64,000 nucleotides of DNA from Serratia symbiotica (GTDB lineage: Bacteria; Pseudomonadota; Gammaproteobacteria; Enterobacterales; Enterobacteriaceae): assembly GCA_900016775.1 (NCBI GenBank), contig LN890288.1, forward strand, positions 496,001 through 560,000, in the 5' to 3' direction. A program made the position numbers and the translations under genes. Of this stretch, positions 1-44,003 are shown piece by piece (position 1 is the first letter of the stretch; the number at the start of each line of letters is the position of its first letter). Under the pieces are notes generated by a model, which was given only the letters and a program-made list of their open reading frames with translations, had not been told where the DNA came from and searched no databases.

Positions 1-603
1 TTTATTGAACAGCCATTAAATGGAAGAGTAATGATTAATTTTTATAAAATAGCAGATATTACGGGTTCTGGGAGAATAAATTCATTAAAAGTAGCTTCTT
101 TTATTTTACGTAATAACCATAATAATTGGTATTATCCAGAATCTAATATTTTTATAAATCCTTTTAATATAACAACATTAACTTGTAATATTACTAATAC
201 AATTAAAACCATTAATATGGGTGTAATAGAAAAAAATGATTTTAAAGGTATAGGAAGTTGGCCAAGTTCAGATCATACTAAAGATATTATCATTCCTTTA
301 AATTGTAATACAAGTACACATGTAAGTATACAAGTTGATGGTATCATAGAAGATGCATCAAAAGGAATTCTAAAAATAAATAATTCTAATCAATGCCATA
401 CTAATAGCGTAGCATGTGGTATTGGTATACAATTATTATATAATAATATTCCATTATTTCTTGGATCAGAAATTCCAATAAATTTTAATGAATTTAAAAA
501 TAATTATAATATTGTATTAAAAGCAAGATATTATCAAATAGAAAAATTTATCAAACCAGGTAATGCTAATAGCAATGCTTCATTTACTATAACTTATCAA
601 TAA
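1..603 (+). CDS. Fimbrial adhesin / tip pilin, C-terminal part (5' end outside window)
   Basis: The reading frame is open to the left edge, so the Met at 31 is probably internal and the gene is cut by the window. The last 140 or so residues look like the pilin domain of chaperone-usher fimbriae: a first cysteine in TLTCNIT, a second in IPLNCNT about 45 residues later, a GIGIQLLYN strand, IVLKARYYQ, then GNANSNASFTITYQ with the penultimate Tyr typical of donor-strand pilins. The sequence before this domain and the extra NQCHTNSVAC cysteine pair resemble two-domain tip adhesins (FimH/MrkD-like) rather than a major rod subunit. It would be exported and assembled outside the outer membrane with a periplasmic chaperone and usher, neither of which is visible here. 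Family call is firm; adhesin versus minor subunit is inference. Confidence 0.75.
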   Translation, partial: FIEQPLNGRVMINFYKIADITGSGRINSLKVASFILRNNHNNWYYPESNIFINPFNITTLTCNITNTIKTINMGVIEKNDFKGIGSWPSSDHTKDIIIPLNCNTSTHVSIQVDGIIEDASKGILKINNSNQCHTNSVACGIGIQLLYNNIPLFLGSEIPINFNEFKNNYNIVLKARYYQIEKFIKPGNANSNASFTITYQ

Positions 604-12829: not shown

Positions 12830-13423
12830 TTATGTTTTAACTTTAGATACAATAACCATTGCTGGTCGTAATAATCTTCCATTTAACATATAACCTTTTT
12901 GCATAATCATAATTACATGATTTGGTTGATGATCATTAGATTCACTTAAACTTATAGCTTGATGTATATCTGGATTAAATGGTACATTAATATCATTAAT
13001 AATGATTATACCATATTTATAAATAACATCTTGTAAAGATTTTAATGTTAATTCAATTCCTTTAATCATTGGTATTAATTCAGGATTATTTTTATTTGTA
13101 AGTTCAAGAGCGCGTTCAAGATTATCAATTACAGGTAATAAATCACTAGAAAAACTTTCTAATGCAAATTTATGTATTTTTTGAATATCTAATTCCGTAC
13201 GTCGACGAATATTTTCTACTTCTGCTTTAGCACGTAATAAATTATCATATTCAGTATGTTCCTTTTTTTTAAGTTCAATTAATTGTAATTCTAATTCAGT
13301 AATACGTGCATCTTTTAAATCAACATTTATTTCTGTTTCTTTTGATAAATTATCAGATTGTTTTTTTTCTTGTATTTCTTCTAAAATTTGCTCATTTAAT
13401 GTTTTACTTTCTATATTACTCAT
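12830..13423 (-). CDS. grpE: Nucleotide exchange factor GrpE
   Basis: Releases ADP from DnaK in the DnaK-DnaJ-GrpE chaperone cycle. An acidic N-terminal coil (residues 1-60) is followed by the long dimerisation helix ([23 protein letters not shown]) and the beta domain ([32 protein letters not shown]). The start at 13423 gives MSNIESKT with a GGAG seven bases ahead and 197 residues, the E. coli length; the in-frame extension to 13438 has no such support. A sigma-32 promoter lies upstream (13468-13494). Divergent from nadK, as in E. coli. Confidence 0.96.
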
Positions 13424-13467
13424 CAAATATCTCCGCATTTTAGCATTAATCCCACAAGTTGGATTAT

Positions 13468-13548: not shown

Positions 13549-14427
13549 ATGAATAAAAAATTCACATGTATTGGTATTATTGGTCACCCACGTTATCTTT
13601 CTGCATTATCAACACATAAAATACTATATCATTGGTTAATATCTCATGGATATTATGTAATAATTGAACAAAAAATTTCTAAATTTTTAAAATTAAAAAA
13701 AGCTATAACTGGTAGTTTAAAAGATATTGGACAAAAAGCGGATTTAGCAATAATAGTAGGTGGTAATGGAAATATGCTAAATGCTGCACGTATATTAGCT
13801 TACTGTGATATTAAAGTAATTGGAATTAATCATGGAAATTTAGGTTTTCTTACTGATCTTAATCCTAGCAATGCAATTAAATATTTAAAAGATATATTAA
13901 AAGGTGAATATATTAATGAACAACGTTTTTTATTAGAAACTAATATATATAAAAATAAAAAAAAAAAATATATTAGTACTGCTTTAAATGAAGTTATATT
14001 ACATTCTGGTAAAATATCACATATGATTGAATTTGAAGTATATATCAATAACTGTTATGCTTTTTCTCAACACTCTAATGGTATTATTATTGCTACTCCA
14101 ACAGGATCTACTGCTTATTCTTTATCTGCTGGAGGACCAATACTTACTCCACCTTTAAAAGCTATCACATTAATACCAATGTTTCCACATACTTTATCAG
14201 CTCGCCCATTAGTAATTAATAGTAATAGTACTATCCAATTAAAATTTATAAAAAAATATAATAATTTAGAAATCAATTGTGATAATCAAATTTTTCTACC
14301 TATCAAAAATGGTGAAAAAATATTAATTCAGCGTAGTAATTCTTATTTAAATCTTATTCATCCAAAAAATTATAATTATTTTAATATATTAAGTTCAAAA
14401 TTAGGTTGGTCTAAAAAATTATTTTAA
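13549..14427 (+). CDS. nadK: NAD kinase, with two motif Asp-to-Asn changes
   Basis: Makes NADP from NAD and ATP; usually essential. 292 residues, co-linear with E. coli over the full length ([57 protein letters not shown]). The hallmark GGDGN motif reads GGNGN: residue 73, the Asp thought to activate the NAD ribose hydroxyl, is Asn. A second conserved Asp in the SDG segment before TPTGSTAY is also Asn (residue 177). The frame is otherwise intact with no stop or frameshift. It may be impaired, tolerated, or mis-sequenced. Divergent from grpE. Confidence 0.95.
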
Positions 14428-15021: not shown

Positions 15022-16152
15022 TTATAACTTAAAATCACTTAAATCATCCATATGTACCGATGAATCAATTTGACCTACTAAATAAGAACTAATTTCTACT
15101 TCTTGTGGCGCAACTTGTACATTATCAGATACTAACCAAGAATTAATCCATGGAATAGGATTAGAATATATTTTAAATGGAATTTTAAGACCTACTGCAT
15201 GCATTCTAATATTAGTAATATAATCTATATATTGACATAAAATTTCTTTATTTAATCCAATCATTGATCCATCACGAAATAAATATTTTGCCCATTCTTT
15301 TTCTTGTTGAGCAGCTAATACAAATAAATTATACGATTGGTTTTGACATGCTATAGAAATTTCTTTCATTTCCGGATCATCAATACCAGAACGCATTAAA
15401 TTTAATATATTTTGAGTACCAGTAAGATGCAATGCTTCATCACGAGCAATTAATTTAATAATTTTAGCATTACCTTCCATTAATTTACATTCTGCAAAAG
15501 AAAAAGAACAAGCAAAACTAACATAAAAACGAATTGCTTCTAATACATTAACACTCATTAAACATAAATATAATTGTTTTTTTAAAGCATATAAATTTAC
15601 AGTAATAATTTTATTGTTTATTTTATGAACACCTTCTCCTAATAAATGATAATAACTTGTCATTTGAATTAAATCATCATAATAACTAGTAATATCTTTT
15701 GAACGTTTAATAATTTCTTTATTTGTAACAATATCATCAAATACTAATGCTGGATCATTAACAATATTACGAATGATATGAGTATAAGAACGTGAATGAA
15801 TAGTTTCAAAAAATGACCAAGTTTCTATCCAAGTTTCTAATTCTGGAATAGAAATTAATGGAAGAAAAGCAATATTAGGACTACGTCCTTGAATAGAATC
15901 TAATAATGTTTGATATTTTAAATTACTAATAAAAATATGTTTTTCATGTTCCGGAAGTTTTTGATAATCAATTCTATCACGAGATACATCAACTTCTTCT
16001 GGACGCCAAAAAAAAGATAATTGTTTTTCAATTAATTTCTCAAATATCTCATATTTTTGTTGATCATAACGAGCTACATTAACTGATTGACCAAAAAACA
16101 TAGGTTCTAATAGTGGGTTATTTTTATTTTGAGAAAAACTAGTATAAGCCAT
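15022..16152 (-). CDS. nrdB: Ribonucleotide reductase class Ia, beta subunit
   Basis: Holds the diferric-tyrosyl radical that drives dNTP synthesis with NrdA. 376 residues, same as E. coli. The radical Tyr (Tyr123 counting Met) is in IHSRSYTHI, and the iron ligands lie in [11 protein letters not shown] and RDEALHLTG. The C-terminal tail that docks on NrdA ends in DDLSDFKL. Lies 185 bp behind nrdA on the same strand, as in E. coli; the ferredoxin-like yfaE that follows in E. coli is absent. Confidence 0.98.
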
Positions 16153-16337: not shown

Positions 16338-18626
16338 TTAAATTTTACAAGCACCACGTTCACAATTATTATCATCTATTTTAGAAAATTGTAAATCTTC
16401 TTGTATATCTTTTGCACCATCTCGAGTATTTTGATAATATAAAGTTTTAATACCTAATTTATAAGCAGTTAATAAATCTTTTAACAATTGTTTCATAGGT
16501 ACTTTTTTTCCTGGAAATTTAGTTGGATCATAATTTGTATTAGCAGAAATAGATTGATCAATAAATTTTTGCATTAAACCAACTAGTTGTAAATAACCAT
16601 CATTATTTGGCATATCCCATAATAATTCATAATTATTTTTTAAATATTCATATTCTGGTACTACTTGTCTTAAAATACCATCTTTTGATGCTTTAATACT
16701 AACATAACCACGAGGTGGTTCAATTCCATTAGTAGCATTAGATATTTGCGAAGAAGTCTCTGATGGCATTAAAGCAGATAATGTGGAATTTCGTAAACCA
16801 TTTTTTTTAATATCTTTACGTAAAGTTTCCCAATCATAATGTAATGGTTCATTACAAATAATATCTAAATCTTTTTTATAAGTATCAATTGGTAGTATTC
16901 CTTGCGAATAACTAGTTTCATTAAACCATAAACAAGCACCTTTTTCTTTAGCTAATCGATTAGACGCTTTTAACAAAAAATATTGTATAGCTTCAAAAGT
17001 TTTATGAGTTAAATTATTAGCACTACCATCAGAATAACGAACACCATTTTTCGCTAAATAGTAAGCAAAATTAATTACACCAATACCTAAAGTACGACGA
17101 TTAATTGCTCCTATCTGAGCAGCTTTAATAGGATAATCTTGATAATCTAATAATGCATCTAATGAACGTACTGCTAAAATTGATAATTCTTCTAAATCAT
17201 CTAAACTATCAATAACACCTAAATTATAAGCAGATAATGTACATAAAGCAATCTCACCATTCTCATCATTAATATTATTTAATGGTTTAGTAGGTAAAAT
17301 AATTTCTAAACATAAATTAGATTGACGTACTGGAGCTAATTTAGGATTAAATGGACTATGTGTATTACAATGATCAACATTTTGAATATAAATACGACCA
17401 GTAGATGTACGTTCTTGCATCATAAGAGAAAATAATTCAATTGATTTTATTTGTTTTTTTCGAATATTTTTATCTTCTTCATATTTTATATATAAACGTT
17501 CAAATTCATCTTGAGCTATAAAAAATGCTTCATATAATCCTGGAACATCGGATGGACTAAATAATGTAATATCTAATCCTTTAATTAAACGTTGATACAT
17601 TAAACGATTTAATTGTACTCCATAATCCATATGACGAATTCGATTTCCTTCAGTACCACGATTATTTTTTAAAACTAATAAACTTTCTATTTCTAAATGC
17701 CATATTGGATAAAATAATGTTGCTGCACCACCTCGTATACCACCTTGAGAACAAGATTTTACAGCAGTTTGAAAATGTTTATAAAATGGAATACAACCTG
17801 TATGAAATGCTTCACCATGACGAATCGAACTACCTAAAGCACGAATACGACCAGCATTAATACCAATACCAGCTCGTTGTGAAACATACTTCACAATAGC
17901 GCTAGAAGTAGCATTAATAGAATCTAAAGTATCATCACATTCAATTAATACACATGAACTAAATTGACGAGTGGGAGTACGAACACCAGACATAATTGGT
18001 GTAGGTAATGAAATTTTAAAGGTAGAAATCGCATTATAAAAACGTTTAACATAATTTAAACGAGTTTCAGGTGGATATTTTGAAAATAAACAAGCTGATA
18101 CTAAGATATATAAAAATTGAGCGCTTTCATAAATTTCACCATTTATACGATTTTGAACTAAATATTTTCCTTCTAATTGTTTAACAGCTGCATAAGAAAA
18201 ATTCATATCACGCCAATGATCAATAAAAGTATCCATTTGTTCAAATTCTTCAAAATTATAATATTTTAATAAAAGATGATCATATTTACCTAATTTTATC
18301 ATACGTGTTACATGAGTATATAATTTAGGTGGTTTAAACTGACCATATGCTTTTTTACGTAAATGAAAAATTGTTAAACGTGCAGCTAAATATTGATAAT
18401 CAGGTGCATCATGAGATATTAAATCAGCAGCAGTTTTAATTATAGTTTTATGAATATCAGAAGTTTTAATACCATCATAAAATTGAATATATGAACGCGG
18501 CTCTACTTGAGAGATAGAAATATTTTTTAATCCTTTAGCCGCCCAATCAATAACTCGGTGGATTTTATTAAAATTAATGCGCTCTTTACGGCCATCGCGC
18601 TTAATTACAAGTAAACCTTGCTTCAT
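16338..18626 (-). CDS. nrdA: Ribonucleotide reductase class Ia, alpha subunit
   Basis: Catalytic subunit reducing ribonucleoside diphosphates. 762 residues (E. coli 761). The N-terminal ATP-cone (LLVIKRDGRKERINFNKIHR) for overall activity control is kept, followed by the barrel with FSSCVLIEC, NLCLEI and the C-terminal CERGACKI, which supplies the Cys pair reduced by thioredoxin or glutaredoxin. Similarity to E. coli is very high over the whole length, so the gene is under strong constraint. The upstream region is unusually structured (see 18627-18841). Confidence 0.98.
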   Translation of the reverse strand: MKQGLLVIKRDGRKERINFNKIHRVIDWAAKGLKNISISQVEPRSYIQFYDGIKTSDIHKTIIKTAADLISHDAPDYQYLAARLTIFHLRKKAYGQFKPPKLYTHVTRMIKLGKYDHLLLKYYNFEEFEQMDTFIDHWRDMNFSYAAVKQLEGKYLVQNRINGEIYESAQFLYILVSACLFSKYPPETRLNYVKRFYNAISTFKISLPTPIMSGVRTPTRQFSSCVLIECDDTLDSINATSSAIVKYVSQRAGIGINAGRIRALGSSIRHGEAFHTGCIPFYKHFQTAVKSCSQGGIRGGAATLFYPIWHLEIESLLVLKNNRGTEGNRIRHMDYGVQLNRLMYQRLIKGLDITLFSPSDVPGLYEAFFIAQDEFERLYIKYEEDKNIRKKQIKSIELFSLMMQERTSTGRIYIQNVDHCNTHSPFNPKLAPVRQSNLCLEIILPTKPLNNINDENGEIALCTLSAYNLGVIDSLDDLEELSILAVRSLDALLDYQDYPIKAAQIGAINRRTLGIGVINFAYYLAKNGVRYSDGSANNLTHKTFEAIQYFLLKASNRLAKEKGACLWFNETSYSQGILPIDTYKKDLDIICNEPLHYDWETLRKDIKKNGLRNSTLSALMPSETSSQISNATNGIEPPRGYVSIKASKDGILRQVVPEYEYLKNNYELLWDMPNNDGYLQLVGLMQKFIDQSISANTNYDPTKFPGKKVPMKQLLKDLLTAYKLGIKTLYYQNTRDGAKDIQEDLQFSKIDDNNCERGACKI

Positions 18627-39796: not shown

Positions 39797-41452
39797 TTTT
39801 ATAATTTAATGATAATTTAAAATAAAAATAAAATATTATTAAAGATAAATATTATATACATATAATTTTTTTTAATTAAATATTTAATATAAATATAAAA
39901 ACTATTAAATATATAATTTATACAAATTTTAAATTAATTACTACTTTAATATCTAAAATAATATTTTTATCTCTATAAATTAAATTATTTAATAATATTA
40001 TTAAATTTAATATTATTTATTTTAATATTTTTATTTCTAAATATAATATATATAATTATATATTTATTTTAAAAAAAATAATTATTAACAATATTTTATT
40101 ATTAAATGATATATTAATTTTTATTATTTTAAATAATTTAGAATTTAATTCAATTTTTTTTAATATTAAGTTTACTATAATTTATTGCTTCATATTTAAT
40201 TATTTATAAAATTAAAGTTTTTATCATAATGTTTAGAATAGCAAAAATAATATCAATATTTATTCCATCTTCTTCTAAAACAATAATATTAATACTAATT
40301 AATTCTATATTTAAATTAATTAATTTATCACTAAAATTTTAACAATTAATTATAACATTAATTTATATAAAATTTTTATAATTTTAAATATTTAGTTTAC
40401 TATATTTTAATATAAAAATAATCAATAAAATAATAGTACAATATAATTCATAAGAATTGTCAATAATAATAAAATAATTATCAATATGTAATTTATAAAA
40501 TTATACTATTTTAATAAAAAAATAACAAAATATAAATTTTTTATAATTATTATAATATTATAATACTAACCAATATTTAATTTTATTTAAATTTTTATTA
40601 ATATTATAACTAACATAATTATTAGTTACTAATATCATTATTAATAATAAAAAAATATTACTAAAAAATCAATAATTTAAAAAATTTTTTATGTTATTAA
40701 ATAATTTATCTGATTTAAATTTATAAAAAGATATATTCTAAAATAAAGAATTATTCTTATAAAATAAATAATTTTTATTAAAAATTTTTAAAATTGTTAT
40801 AATATATTAAATATATTAGTTTTAATATTCCTTATATATTAATACTTACCATATAAGACATAACTATTTTAATATTTTAAATACACTTAGTAATAATATA
40901 AATTAAATATTTCAATTTTCTTAATCATATTATTTTTAAATTATTTCATTAATATATTTAAGATTAATAAATATAATTTTAAAAAATATAGTTTTTATAT
41001 ATATAAATATTTTTAATTTAATAATTTTAAAAATATTTAATAAATTTAATATAATTTCAAATTAAAAATAACTTTAAATTTTAACAAAATTTAAAATAAA
41101 ATATATTAATTATATTATAAAAATATTTTTAAAAATATTAAATTTAATAAATTAATATTTAATAATAATTTCTTATAACAATTTATAAAATTAAAAAAAA
41201 ATAAAATTAAAATTATAATAATTAAATATGTATTTAATTAAAATTATTTAATATATTTTATAATGAATATATGTTAATAATTTAAAAAAAATAACACAAT
41301 AAATTTAAGTATAAAATACTATATACAAAAAAAATTCATAATATTTAATAAAATATTAAAAAATTTAATTAAATATAATTAATATTATACATTTAAATAA
41401 ATTTATTTAAAAAATAAAATTATGTAATTTATTAATATATTAATAAATAAAA
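39797..41452. other. 1.66-kb gene-free region between pykF and erpA
   Basis: Longest intergenic stretch in the window. It is AT-rich throughout, with slightly less AT-rich patches around 40140-40350 and 40800-40870. On the minus strand 40204-40338 is an open stretch of 44 codons containing IIVLEEDGINIDIIF, without a start codon; I cannot assign it. Likely the remains of deleted genes. A 20-bp palindrome (41429-41448) just after erpA may act as its terminator. Confidence 0.55.
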
Positions 41453-41797
41453 TTAAATACTAAATGAAGATCCACAACTACAAGTTATTTTAGCATTTGG
41501 ATTATGTACTATAAATTGTGAACTTTGTAAAGTTTCAATATAATCTATTTCCCCTCCTAATAAATATTGTAAACTAATTGAATCTACTACTAATATTATA
41601 TTTTGTTGTTTAATAATTACATCATTTTCTTTAATTCTATTATCAAATATAAATTGATATTTAAACCCACTACATCCACCACCAATAATATAAATTCGTA
41701 ACTTTAAATTTAAATTTTTTTTATTATTAATTATTTTTTGTAATTTATTAACTGCTGATTTAGTAAAAGTTAATGGAAATGTATTTTTTTGATTCAT
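41453..41797 (-). CDS. erpA: Iron-sulfur cluster insertion protein ErpA
   Basis: A-type carrier that delivers Fe-S clusters, for example to the IspG/IspH isoprenoid enzymes. 114 residues, as in E. coli. The three cluster cysteines are in [12 protein letters not shown] and CSCGSSFSI. The ending [16 protein letters not shown] distinguishes ErpA from IscA/SufA. AAGG lies upstream of the ATG. Confidence 0.96.
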
Positions 41798-42353
41798 AAT
41801 TTTAACCTTTTAATTTAATATTAATTATATTTACAATATAAATATTTATTAAAATTAATCATACTCACAGTATTTATTTAAAACGTTTAATATATAAAAT
41901 TATATAAAAAATATTGAATTTTAAAACTTATATTAATTAAATATTTTATTTTAAAATAAAAATATTATTACTTATTAAATAATAAAATAATGTTATTATT
42001 TAATATATTTAATAATATTTATTTATATTATTTAAAATATCAATATATATATTTAATAAAATTTATTAAATAATTTATAATAAATATTATATTTAATTTT
42101 AAAAAAAATGTAATATATAAATATTTTTATTTTATTATTAAATTAAATATTTATAATATATTATAATATTAATTGATTATAAATCATTCTATATCATTTC
42201 ATATTATTAAAATTATAAATACAATATTTATTTTATAATTTTAATTATATGATTTATTTTAATATGAATAATACATTATCTATATAAAATTAATATTTAA
42301 ATAATTATTTTATAATTAACATATTTTTTATAAATTTTGGATAATTTAAAAAA
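41798..42353. other. AT spacer between divergent erpA and coaE
   Basis: About 550 bases with both promoters; nothing recognisable apart from A/T runs. A GGATAA lies shortly before the coaE ATG. Confidence 0.55.
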
Positions 42354-42968
42354 ATGACTTATATAATTGCATTAACTGGAGGTATTGGAAGTGGAAAATC
42401 AACTATAACAGATATTTTTTCAAGTTATGGTGTAACTATTGTTGATACTGACATAATTTCACGTCAAATTATTGAAAAAGATGTTTCAATATTAATAAAA
42501 ATTGTTCAATATTTTGGTAATGAAATTTTATTAAAAAATGGTACTTTAAATCGTATGATGTTACGAAAAAAAATTTTTAATCAACCTAATGGTACATTAT
42601 GGTTAAATAATTTATTACATCCATTAATTTTAAAAGAAAGTAAAAATCAATTAAAAAAATCTATTACTCCTTATACTTTATGGGTAGTACCTATGTTAAT
42701 AGAAAATAATTTACAAAAATATGCTAATAGAATATTAATTATAAATGTTAATATAAATAATCAAATCAATAGAACAATAAAACGTGATAACATTAGTGAT
42801 ATAGAAGTAAAAAATATTTTATTAAAACAAACTACATATACACAAAGACTCATCATAGCAGATGATATTGTTGATAACAATGGAGATATTTCAAATTTAA
42901 AAATATTAACTAATAAATTACACAATTTTTATTTAAAATTAGCAATTTCATCAATAAAAAATAAATAA
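42354..42968 (+). CDS. coaE: Dephospho-CoA kinase
   Basis: Last step of coenzyme A synthesis. 204 residues (E. coli 206). P-loop ALTGGIGSGKST, the substrate segment IVDTDIISRQI, LHPLI, and VVPMLIENNLQKYANRILIINV are typical. The usual neighbours (guaC, zapD, yacG) are absent. Confidence 0.95.
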   Translation: MTYIIALTGGIGSGKSTITDIFSSYGVTIVDTDIISRQIIEKDVSILIKIVQYFGNEILLKNGTLNRMMLRKKIFNQPNGTLWLNNLLHPLILKESKNQLKKSITPYTLWVVPMLIENNLQKYANRILIINVNINNQINRTIKRDNISDIEVKNILLKQTTYTQRLIIADDIVDNNGDISNLKILTNKLHNFYLKLAISSIKNK

Positions 42969-43622
42969 TAAAAATTAACATAATATTTATACTTTGTTAA
43001 ATTTAATAAATATTAAAATATTTTAATATTTTAATATTTAATTTTATTATTATTTTATATATAAATTATTAATATTAAAAATAATATAATTAAAATTTTA
43101 TATAAAATAAAATGTTTTATTTTATATAAAATAAAATTAATAATATTACTATTAAATTTAAATTACATTATTAATATTTTATACTATAAAATATTAATAA
43201 ATAACTATTTAAAATTATATTTATTATACTCATTAAATAAATAAACTTAATTTAATTGTTAAATATTTTAAAATATACAATGATAATATTATTATTTATT
43301 AAATTAAAATAATATCAAATAAAATAATATTAAAAATTAATATAACTTATATTAAAAGTAATACTGATATATTTATAAATATTTTAATAAAATTCACACT
43401 TCATAAAATTAAAATATATTATAATATATAATAAAATATATTATAAAAAAAAACTAAAAACTAATACTACATATAATTTTAATAATCATTGTATAATTCA
43501 CTATTATATTATTACAATATATACATTAAATATTAGTGATTCTATTATTTATCGTAAAATTATAAATAATATTATAAAAATAACTTATATTATAAAAAAT
43601 TAATAAAGGAAGTACGATACTA
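42969..43622. other. AT spacer between coaE and acpS
   Basis: Gene-free except for an 18-bp hairpin at 43095-43132. AAGGAAG about 11 bases before the acpS ATG is a clear Shine-Dalgarno. Confidence 0.55.
43095..43132. terminator. Perfect 18-bp AT-only hairpin after coaE
   Basis: Arms 43095-43112 and 43115-43132 are exact complements with a 2-base TG loop, about 125 bases past coaE. Similar in design to the hairpins after ribC and grxD. Confidence 0.45.
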
Positions 43623-44003
43623 ATGACCATATTAGGAATAGGTATTGATATTATTAAAATAATACGTATTAAAAAAATATTTATACATAGTGGAAATCGT
43701 TTAGCAAAACGAATATTAAATACTACTGAATGGAAAAATTATACAAAAAATAAACAACCTATACGTTTTCTTACTAAACATTTTGCAATTAAGGAAGCTG
43801 TTTCAAAAGCATTAGGTACTGGCATTCGCAATGGATTAACATTTAATCAATTTGAAGTATTTCATGATAAATTAGGTAAACCAAACATTTATTTACATCA
43901 TAAAGCTGCTGAAATTGCTAAAAATATGGGAGTAACTAAAATTCATGTTTCATTAACTGATGAAAATTGTTATGTTTTTGCAACAGTTATTATTGAAAAT
44001 TAA
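43623..44003 (+). CDS. acpS: Holo-[acyl-carrier-protein] synthase
   Basis: Transfers phosphopantetheine from CoA to acyl carrier protein. 126 residues, as in E. coli. Metal Asp in ILGIGIDIIKI, FAIKEAVSKALGTGIRNGL with its conserved Glu, and HVSLTDENCYVFA. In E. coli it ends the rnc-era-recO-pdxJ-acpS group; here rnc-era lie about 14 kb away and recO/pdxJ are not seen. Confidence 0.96.
   Translation: MTILGIGIDIIKIIRIKKIFIHSGNRLAKRILNTTEWKNYTKNKQPIRFLTKHFAIKEAVSKALGTGIRNGLTFNQFEVFHDKLGKPNIYLHHKAAEIAKNMGVTKIHVSLTDENCYVFATVIIEN

Follow-up and report, generated by a model that had tools for sequence, protein, structure and literature searches.

Two papers name NAD kinase as the only enzyme by which NADP is made (PMC4518329; PMC9208755). 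The locus described here is a nadK gene that has lost the codon for the catalytic aspartate. The gene lies in a window of 64,000 nucleotides (the whole stretch of DNA that was analysed), which belongs to a genome of one contig with 650,317 bp, probably that of an insect symbiont. Whether its product still phosphorylates NAD+, and where the NADP of the cell would otherwise come from, was approached by comparing the protein with NadK of larger and of similarly reduced genomes and by following the genes which use NADP.

The nadK gene and its four altered residues

No stop was found inside the nadK frame, which is neither broken nor truncated as the frame of a pseudogene would be. The protein aligns without gaps to two NadK structures, over 291 residues to 4hao and over 292 residues to 2an1. 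Both the N-terminal and the C-terminal NAD kinase domain of Pfam are recognised (PF01513 with 81 bits, gathering threshold 25.5; PF20143 with 127 bits, gathering threshold 23.7), and the score of 477 bits for the NCBIfam NAD(+) kinase equivalog NF002893 exceeds the cut-off of 386. An AlphaFold2 model of the protein reached a mean pLDDT of 85.3, with values under 50 for residues 189-194, a segment which sits in the GSTAY loop. The best structural matches of the predicted fold were 4hao (TM 0.92) and 2an1 (TM 0.90, both normalised to the query). In the model the NAD kinase fold is present, which speaks to the fold of the protein and not to its activity.

Table 1. Positions of nadK, its altered codons and neighbouring genes within the window
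Feature	Position	Strand	Remark
grpE	12830..13438	-	NF010748, 258 bits; divergently oriented neighbour of nadK
nadK orthologue	13549..14427	+	292 aa; open frame by translation
Codon 73, AAT	13765..13767	+	Asn replacing the catalytic Asp of GGDG (reads GGNGN); from sequence
Codon 95, CAT	13831..13833	+	His replacing Arg; from sequence
Codon 175, CAC	14071..14073	+	His replacing the Arg on which the choice between NAD+ and NADH depends in the E. coli enzyme; from sequence
Codon 177, AAT	14077..14079	+	Asn replacing the Asp whose contact with the nicotinamide amide bridges the dimer interface (reads SNG); from sequence
nrdB-like ORF (presumed)	15022..16152	-	By translation
nrdA-like ORF (presumed)	16338..18626	-	By translation

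Judging by their sequence, the two nrd-like ORFs probably encode the small (nrdB) and the large (nrdA) subunit of ribonucleotide reductase. NrdA, NrdB and the DapF encoded nearby retain their catalytic residues, so active sites are not decaying in all genes of this region. The GC content of the window, taken in 4-kb steps, ranges from 11 to 24%. Its lowest step (11.3%) covers positions 40001-44000, and the part between 39.8 and 42.35 kb holds one ORF of at least 110 aa. An ORF at 31-603 (+) faintly resembles FimI, a subunit of type 1 fimbriae, its 33.6 bits being far below the cut-off of 300; such a gene is unexpected in so small a genome.

In the first comparison set, D73, R95, R175 and D177 were each present in 109 of 110 loci, with the window as the sole exception at all four positions. 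Each of the four changed codons could have arisen by one G-to-A step. The first-pass annotation had described an intact frame co-linear with NadK over 292 residues, with Asn in GGNGN (residue 73) and SNG (residue 177). It had regarded the first Asp as near-invariant and as acting in catalysis, and had ascribed both changes to G-to-A steps under AT bias. These statements hold, both codons reading AAT and the kind of change fitting an AT bias; what had been overlooked are R95H and R175H. A second NAD kinase, for which a search had been advised, was not matched in the whole genome, in which the nadK frame is the sole match to NadK.

With regard to the motifs stated for active NAD kinases in a review (PMC8553519), the GGDG motif lacks its catalytic Asp, and conserved region II has lost its leading Asp (Asn177) with the downstream TPTGSTAY being kept. 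The short NE/D motif is present, as N147 and E148, both of which are among the invariant columns. His175 is one of the four residues (Gly, Gln, Thr or His) which at position 175 of the E. coli enzyme characterise an NAD(H) kinase. Going by its sequence, the protein is a NadK by descent which fails two stated motif features of active NAD kinases. Compared with other enterobacterial NadK proteins (NF002893; 2an1 and 4hao; P0048 from E. coli), it shares the ungapped alignment, the fold and the other conserved motifs, but differs from them by D73N, R95H, R175H and D177N.

The functions of three of these positions can be taken from work on other NAD kinases. The Asp of GGDG abstracts a proton from the 2′-hydroxyl of NAD+, with catalysis being assisted by the diphosphate of NAD, and mutagenesis of the equivalent Asp85 in Ppnk from M. 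tuberculosis showed this residue to be vital for activity (PMC8553519). The nicotinamide amide is contacted from the adjacent subunit by Asp189 of Ppnk, the equivalent of Asp150 in LmNADK1 (PMC8553519). With Arg175 of the E. coli enzyme matching Gly187 of Ppnk (PMC8553519), Asp189 is the counterpart of residue 177 here. For E. coli NadK, the same review reports that R175G, R175Q, R175T and R175H phosphorylate NAD+ as well as NADH, and gives R175K, R175E and R175I as being without NADH kinase activity (PMC8553519). The R175H laboratory variant carries the same specificity-site change as the window enzyme and is described there with that change alone, so that the acids of GGDG and of SDG are both present in it. 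Read from its residues, the window enzyme combines a specificity-site change already tested in the laboratory with the loss of the acid at two further active-site positions.

Recurrence of the substitutions and constraint on the protein

Genomes of the same family with 2.0 Mb or less were considered as reduced (24 + 80 + 17, 121 in all), their status as symbionts being inferred from the reduced size save where a named protein fits. NadK was matched in 77 of the 121, and 70 of these contain an open frame of at least 280 aa. The seven matched genomes without such a frame are G021, G168, G216, G225, G350, G392 and G409. In four of them, G021 (L128), G168 (L201), G225 (L202) and G216 (L203), nadK is interrupted by stops or split frames.

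Among the 70 full-length NadK proteins, Asn73 was found in four and Asn177 likewise in four; the 217 collected NadK proteins include four with Asn73, three with Asn177 and one with Ala177 (P0105). The carriers of GGNG are the window, an Arsenophonus sp. MAG (P0188), the endosymbiont of the louse Pedicinus badii (P0121) and Sodalis sp. CWE (P0195). The latter three resemble the window in having GGNG with the codon AAT, an intact frame, a reduced genome and a replaced R95, but R175 and D177 are unchanged in them, and their identity to the window protein amounts to 48-62%. Apart from the window, D177N was found in three reduced genomes (G162, G171 and G264) and in the proteins P0116 and P0208. 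These five share SNG with the window but retain GGDG. The NadK of G171 (L187) exhibits Asn at both 175 and 177 (QNSNG) with GGDG intact; the listed contamination of this genome is 8%. The combination of D73N, R175H and D177N occurs in the window only, as far as the reduced-genome comparison is concerned.

Further analyses of the reduced genomes were based on 68 of the 70 rows, as G009 (2.0 Mb) and G029 (1.2 Mb), both with GGDG, were grouped with the larger genomes. R95 is altered in 28 and R175 in nine of these 68 rows. His175 belongs to the window alone, both among the 217 collected proteins and among the 70 full-length reduced rows; the other reduced rows with a change at this position have Y, K, N or C. 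Asp73 was present in all 78 comparison rows, which consist of the named loci minus two from S. symbiotica and are largely free-living, with some MAGs. When genomes were searched with a DNA pattern for GGNG, matches were obtained in 14 of 392 genomes of the family and in 15 of 394 genomes of the order; of the 26 loci thus collected, only the four named above are NadK. This pattern demands ATG and then YT past the motif, so that GGNG with Leu is missed; the direct reading of the reduced genomes is unaffected by this. The first-pass annotation had treated the case as singular, which is at odds with the recurrence of both D73N and D177N. It had also considered that GGNGN might turn out to be a common and active variant in related genomes; the motif does recur in related symbionts, but it is rare among them.

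On the first tree (94 rows), position 73 accounted for four changes in four rows and position 177 for four changes in six rows; two rebuilt trees gave five or four changes for position 177. Forcing all four D73N rows into one clade was disfavoured (p-AU 0.023). When only the rows of G008 (Arsenophonus) and G049 (Pedicinus) were forced together, the tree obtained was 40 log units better than that of the free search (p-AU 0.97). Without G008, G049 joined a starred group of eight rows, its nearest rows including P0168 and P0194; this is the earlier neighbourhood of G008. As G049 forms a very long branch, which shifts when G008 is omitted, the number of origins is given as a range: D73N may have arisen by three or four separate changes, three if the Arsenophonus and the Pedicinus rows share one.

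In the 78 comparison rows, 205 columns reach an invariance of at least 97%. The window NadK is altered in 37 of them, a value in the lower third of the 68 reduced rows, which range from 17 to 91. Of these invariant columns, 33 are also without any difference among all the other reduced rows, and the window protein keeps all 33. Measured by these columns, the window NadK exhibits no excess decay. Every change on the tree at positions 73 and 177 leads to Asn, which at the other Asp columns makes up 175 of 393 replacements. Taken as independent draws, an all-Asn outcome has p = 0.039 for four of four and p = 0.0015 for eight of eight changes. Adding Ala177 of P0105, which lies outside the tree, results in eight of nine (p = 0.008), and with three changes at position 73 the count is seven of eight (p about 0.017). 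The test is weak, with few events, a row-based background and Asn being a favoured product of AT bias. It hints that sites 73 and 177 are restricted with the isosteric amide being favoured, as would fit a protein still in use.

Columns changing together with D73N were also looked for in the 68 reduced rows. The lowest p value (0.004) was obtained for P210, changed in three of the four D73N rows versus five of the other 64, and R95 is changed in all four D73N rows versus 24 of 64 (p 0.025). Neither association withstands correction over 204 columns, and a tree-based pair test of R95 with D73N was not significant, the pairs being too few to reach 0.05. For this reason, no compensation of D73N by co-varying columns is claimed.

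NADP demand and relatives without nadK

The RibD step of riboflavin synthesis uses NADPH. The genome of the window keeps ribD (433 bits, above the cut-off), and riboflavin synthase and lumazine synthase are encoded in the window itself; riboflavin synthesis thus appears to be retained. Also kept is zwf (392 bits), whose product, G6PDH, retains K18 and R50, the residues reported to bind the 2′-phosphate of NADP in the E. coli enzyme (PMC4807051). With ribD and an NADP-type zwf being kept, NADP(H) has a use in this cell. The need was estimated at 0.1 to 2 new NADP molecules per second and cell, a rough figure which assumes a pool of 0.1-0.3 mM, a volume of 1 cubic micrometre and a doubling time of 1-5 days, and at such a need a small fraction of the normal turnover could suffice. 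Among the relatives with D73N, zwf is kept in G049 and G105 and has no match in G008; no match to zwf was found in the D177N genomes G162, G171 and G264 either.

Some reduced relatives seem to go without the gene altogether. Of the 121 reduced genomes, 44 yielded no nadK match by single-sequence search (5/24, 31/80 and 8/17), and four of these 44 are under 90% complete. A profile of 26 NadK sequences recovered all five control genomes, including one with a broken gene. Applied to the 44 genomes, it yielded no convincing NadK but five weak matches (E 0.0017 to 0.0054). One of these is a 28-aa frame with a stop, and the other four belong to ORFs with 322 to 333 aa, the length of a phosphofructokinase. 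The GGDG motif is common to NAD kinase and phosphofructokinase (PMC8553519). Five of the genomes without a nadK match (G112, G170, G422, G131 and G317) have congeners with one (genus codes g104, g162, g47 and g123), which suggests that these losses are recent. As nadK is unmatched in 44 of 121 reduced relatives, NadK activity would be dispensable in some of them.

Nevertheless, enzymes which use NADP are widespread among these 44 genomes. FolD, which in E. coli uses NADP, was found above the cut-off in 38 of them; in G122 it is fragmentary. The folD match of G323, a 300-kb genome, lies at C1:252120-252590 and contains two internal TGA, which may stem from decay or from an altered genetic code. 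A G6PDH ORF of at least 486 aa without stops was found in 27 of the 44 genomes lacking nadK versus 25 of 36 genomes bearing it, using the same search. Both K18 and R50 are present in 24 of the 27. The other three, G410 (L243), G285 (L244) and G198 (L245), all from one genus, have T18 with R50 being kept. For the E. coli enzyme, K18T is reported to be indistinguishable from K18A in cofactor preference (PMC4807051). Of 14 nadK-bearing genomes that were read (the window and 13 of the 25), 13 have K18 and R50, and G204 has Asn18. The reduced genomes without nadK thus seem to use NADP which no known NadK of theirs could form. The missing matches could instead stand for a kinase that has diverged beyond the reach of the profile, or for gaps in the assemblies. 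According to two papers, NADK is missing only in Chlamydia trachomatis (PMC4518329, whose Table 1 departs from this claim) or only in Chlamydia spp. (PMC9208755). Among the titles listed from the openly available literature, with most subscription papers being outside this scope, none concerned the loss of nadK in insect symbionts.

Possible states of the window enzyme

The reading we prefer, held with about as much doubt as trust, is that of a weakened NAD kinase. It is encoded in full length and apparently under selection, would probably be relaxed towards NADH, and would be tolerated as the demand is low and an outside supply of NADP appears possible. In such an enzyme, Asn73 would still hold the 2′-hydroxyl but make a poor base, so that turnover would fall and catalysis would lean on assistance by the diphosphate of NAD. 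The side chain of Asn177 could still form a hydrogen bond with the nicotinamide amide, and His175 may admit NADH besides NAD+ for phosphorylation, as in R175H of E. coli. A slow-growing symbiont would need few new NADP molecules per second, for which a small share of the normal activity would be enough, and AT-biased mutation together with weak selection could fix changes that are purged in free-living cells. This reading is supported by the intact ORF, the full-length homology, the recurrence of D73N, the changes on the tree being to Asn only, the 33 of 33 retained columns and the retention of ribD and zwf. It is weakened by the vital role of Asp85 in Ppnk, by the missing nadK match in 44 of 121 reduced relatives, in some of which the activity would be dispensable, and by the restriction to Asn not being absolute (Ala177 in P0105). 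Furthermore, Asn is the commonest AT-driven replacement, and G008, G162, G171 and G264 are without a zwf match, as if the demand for NADP had fallen there.

The main rival, which we consider the less probable of the two though a serious one, assumes a catalytically dead or nearly dead enzyme. NADP(H) would then come from the insect or a co-symbiont, and the gene would be an intact relic heading for loss. This would agree with the catalytic Asp being called vital in Ppnk (PMC8553519) and with the 44 of 121 reduced genomes in which nadK is unmatched and without a convincing profile match, 27 of them with an intact G6PDH (24 with both NADP-contact residues) and 38 with FolD. It fits less well with a window gene that is without excess decay and keeps all of the 33 most conserved columns, and with residue 73 being replaced by Asn in four of four rows. 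The first-pass annotation had named a crippled enzyme, an adapted one or NADP from elsewhere as outcomes. Sequence cannot separate the three, yet the third has gained support from the relatives without a nadK match, and those with G6PDH among them raise the question whether the insect cell supplies its symbionts with NADP(H).

Extending the preferred reading of a weakened enzyme beyond this genome leads to a tentative proposal. Reduced enterobacterial symbionts might repeatedly run a working NAD kinase without the catalytic Asp, many others might use NADP while lacking any NAD kinase, and NADP(H) might pass between host and symbiont. The window enzyme would then be an intermediate, with its relaxed choice between NAD+ and NADH as a side effect. 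Natural Asn variants of the catalytic Asp, having more than one origin, offer ready tests of the contribution of the base in vivo.

Clearly unlikely, in our view, is an adapted NAD(H) kinase, in which R175H together with D177N would lead to direct phosphorylation of NADH and so supply NADPH without a transhydrogenase. R175H is indeed among the changes that add NADH kinase activity to the E. coli enzyme (PMC8553519), and pntB had no match in the genome of the window. However, His175 is found in the window alone, and Lys, one of the residues seen at this position elsewhere (Y, K, N or C), is given as being without such activity in E. coli in the same review. Moreover, NADPH could be regenerated with zwf being retained, and D73N would slow the phosphorylation of NAD+ and NADH alike.

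An origin of the Asn codons in faulty assembly or sequencing is very improbable, as four separate changes in one otherwise open frame would be an unlikely set of errors, GGNG with the codon AAT was also found in three other assemblies, and the identical protein is listed on two contigs (the longest with 650,445 bp), possibly from independent assemblies.
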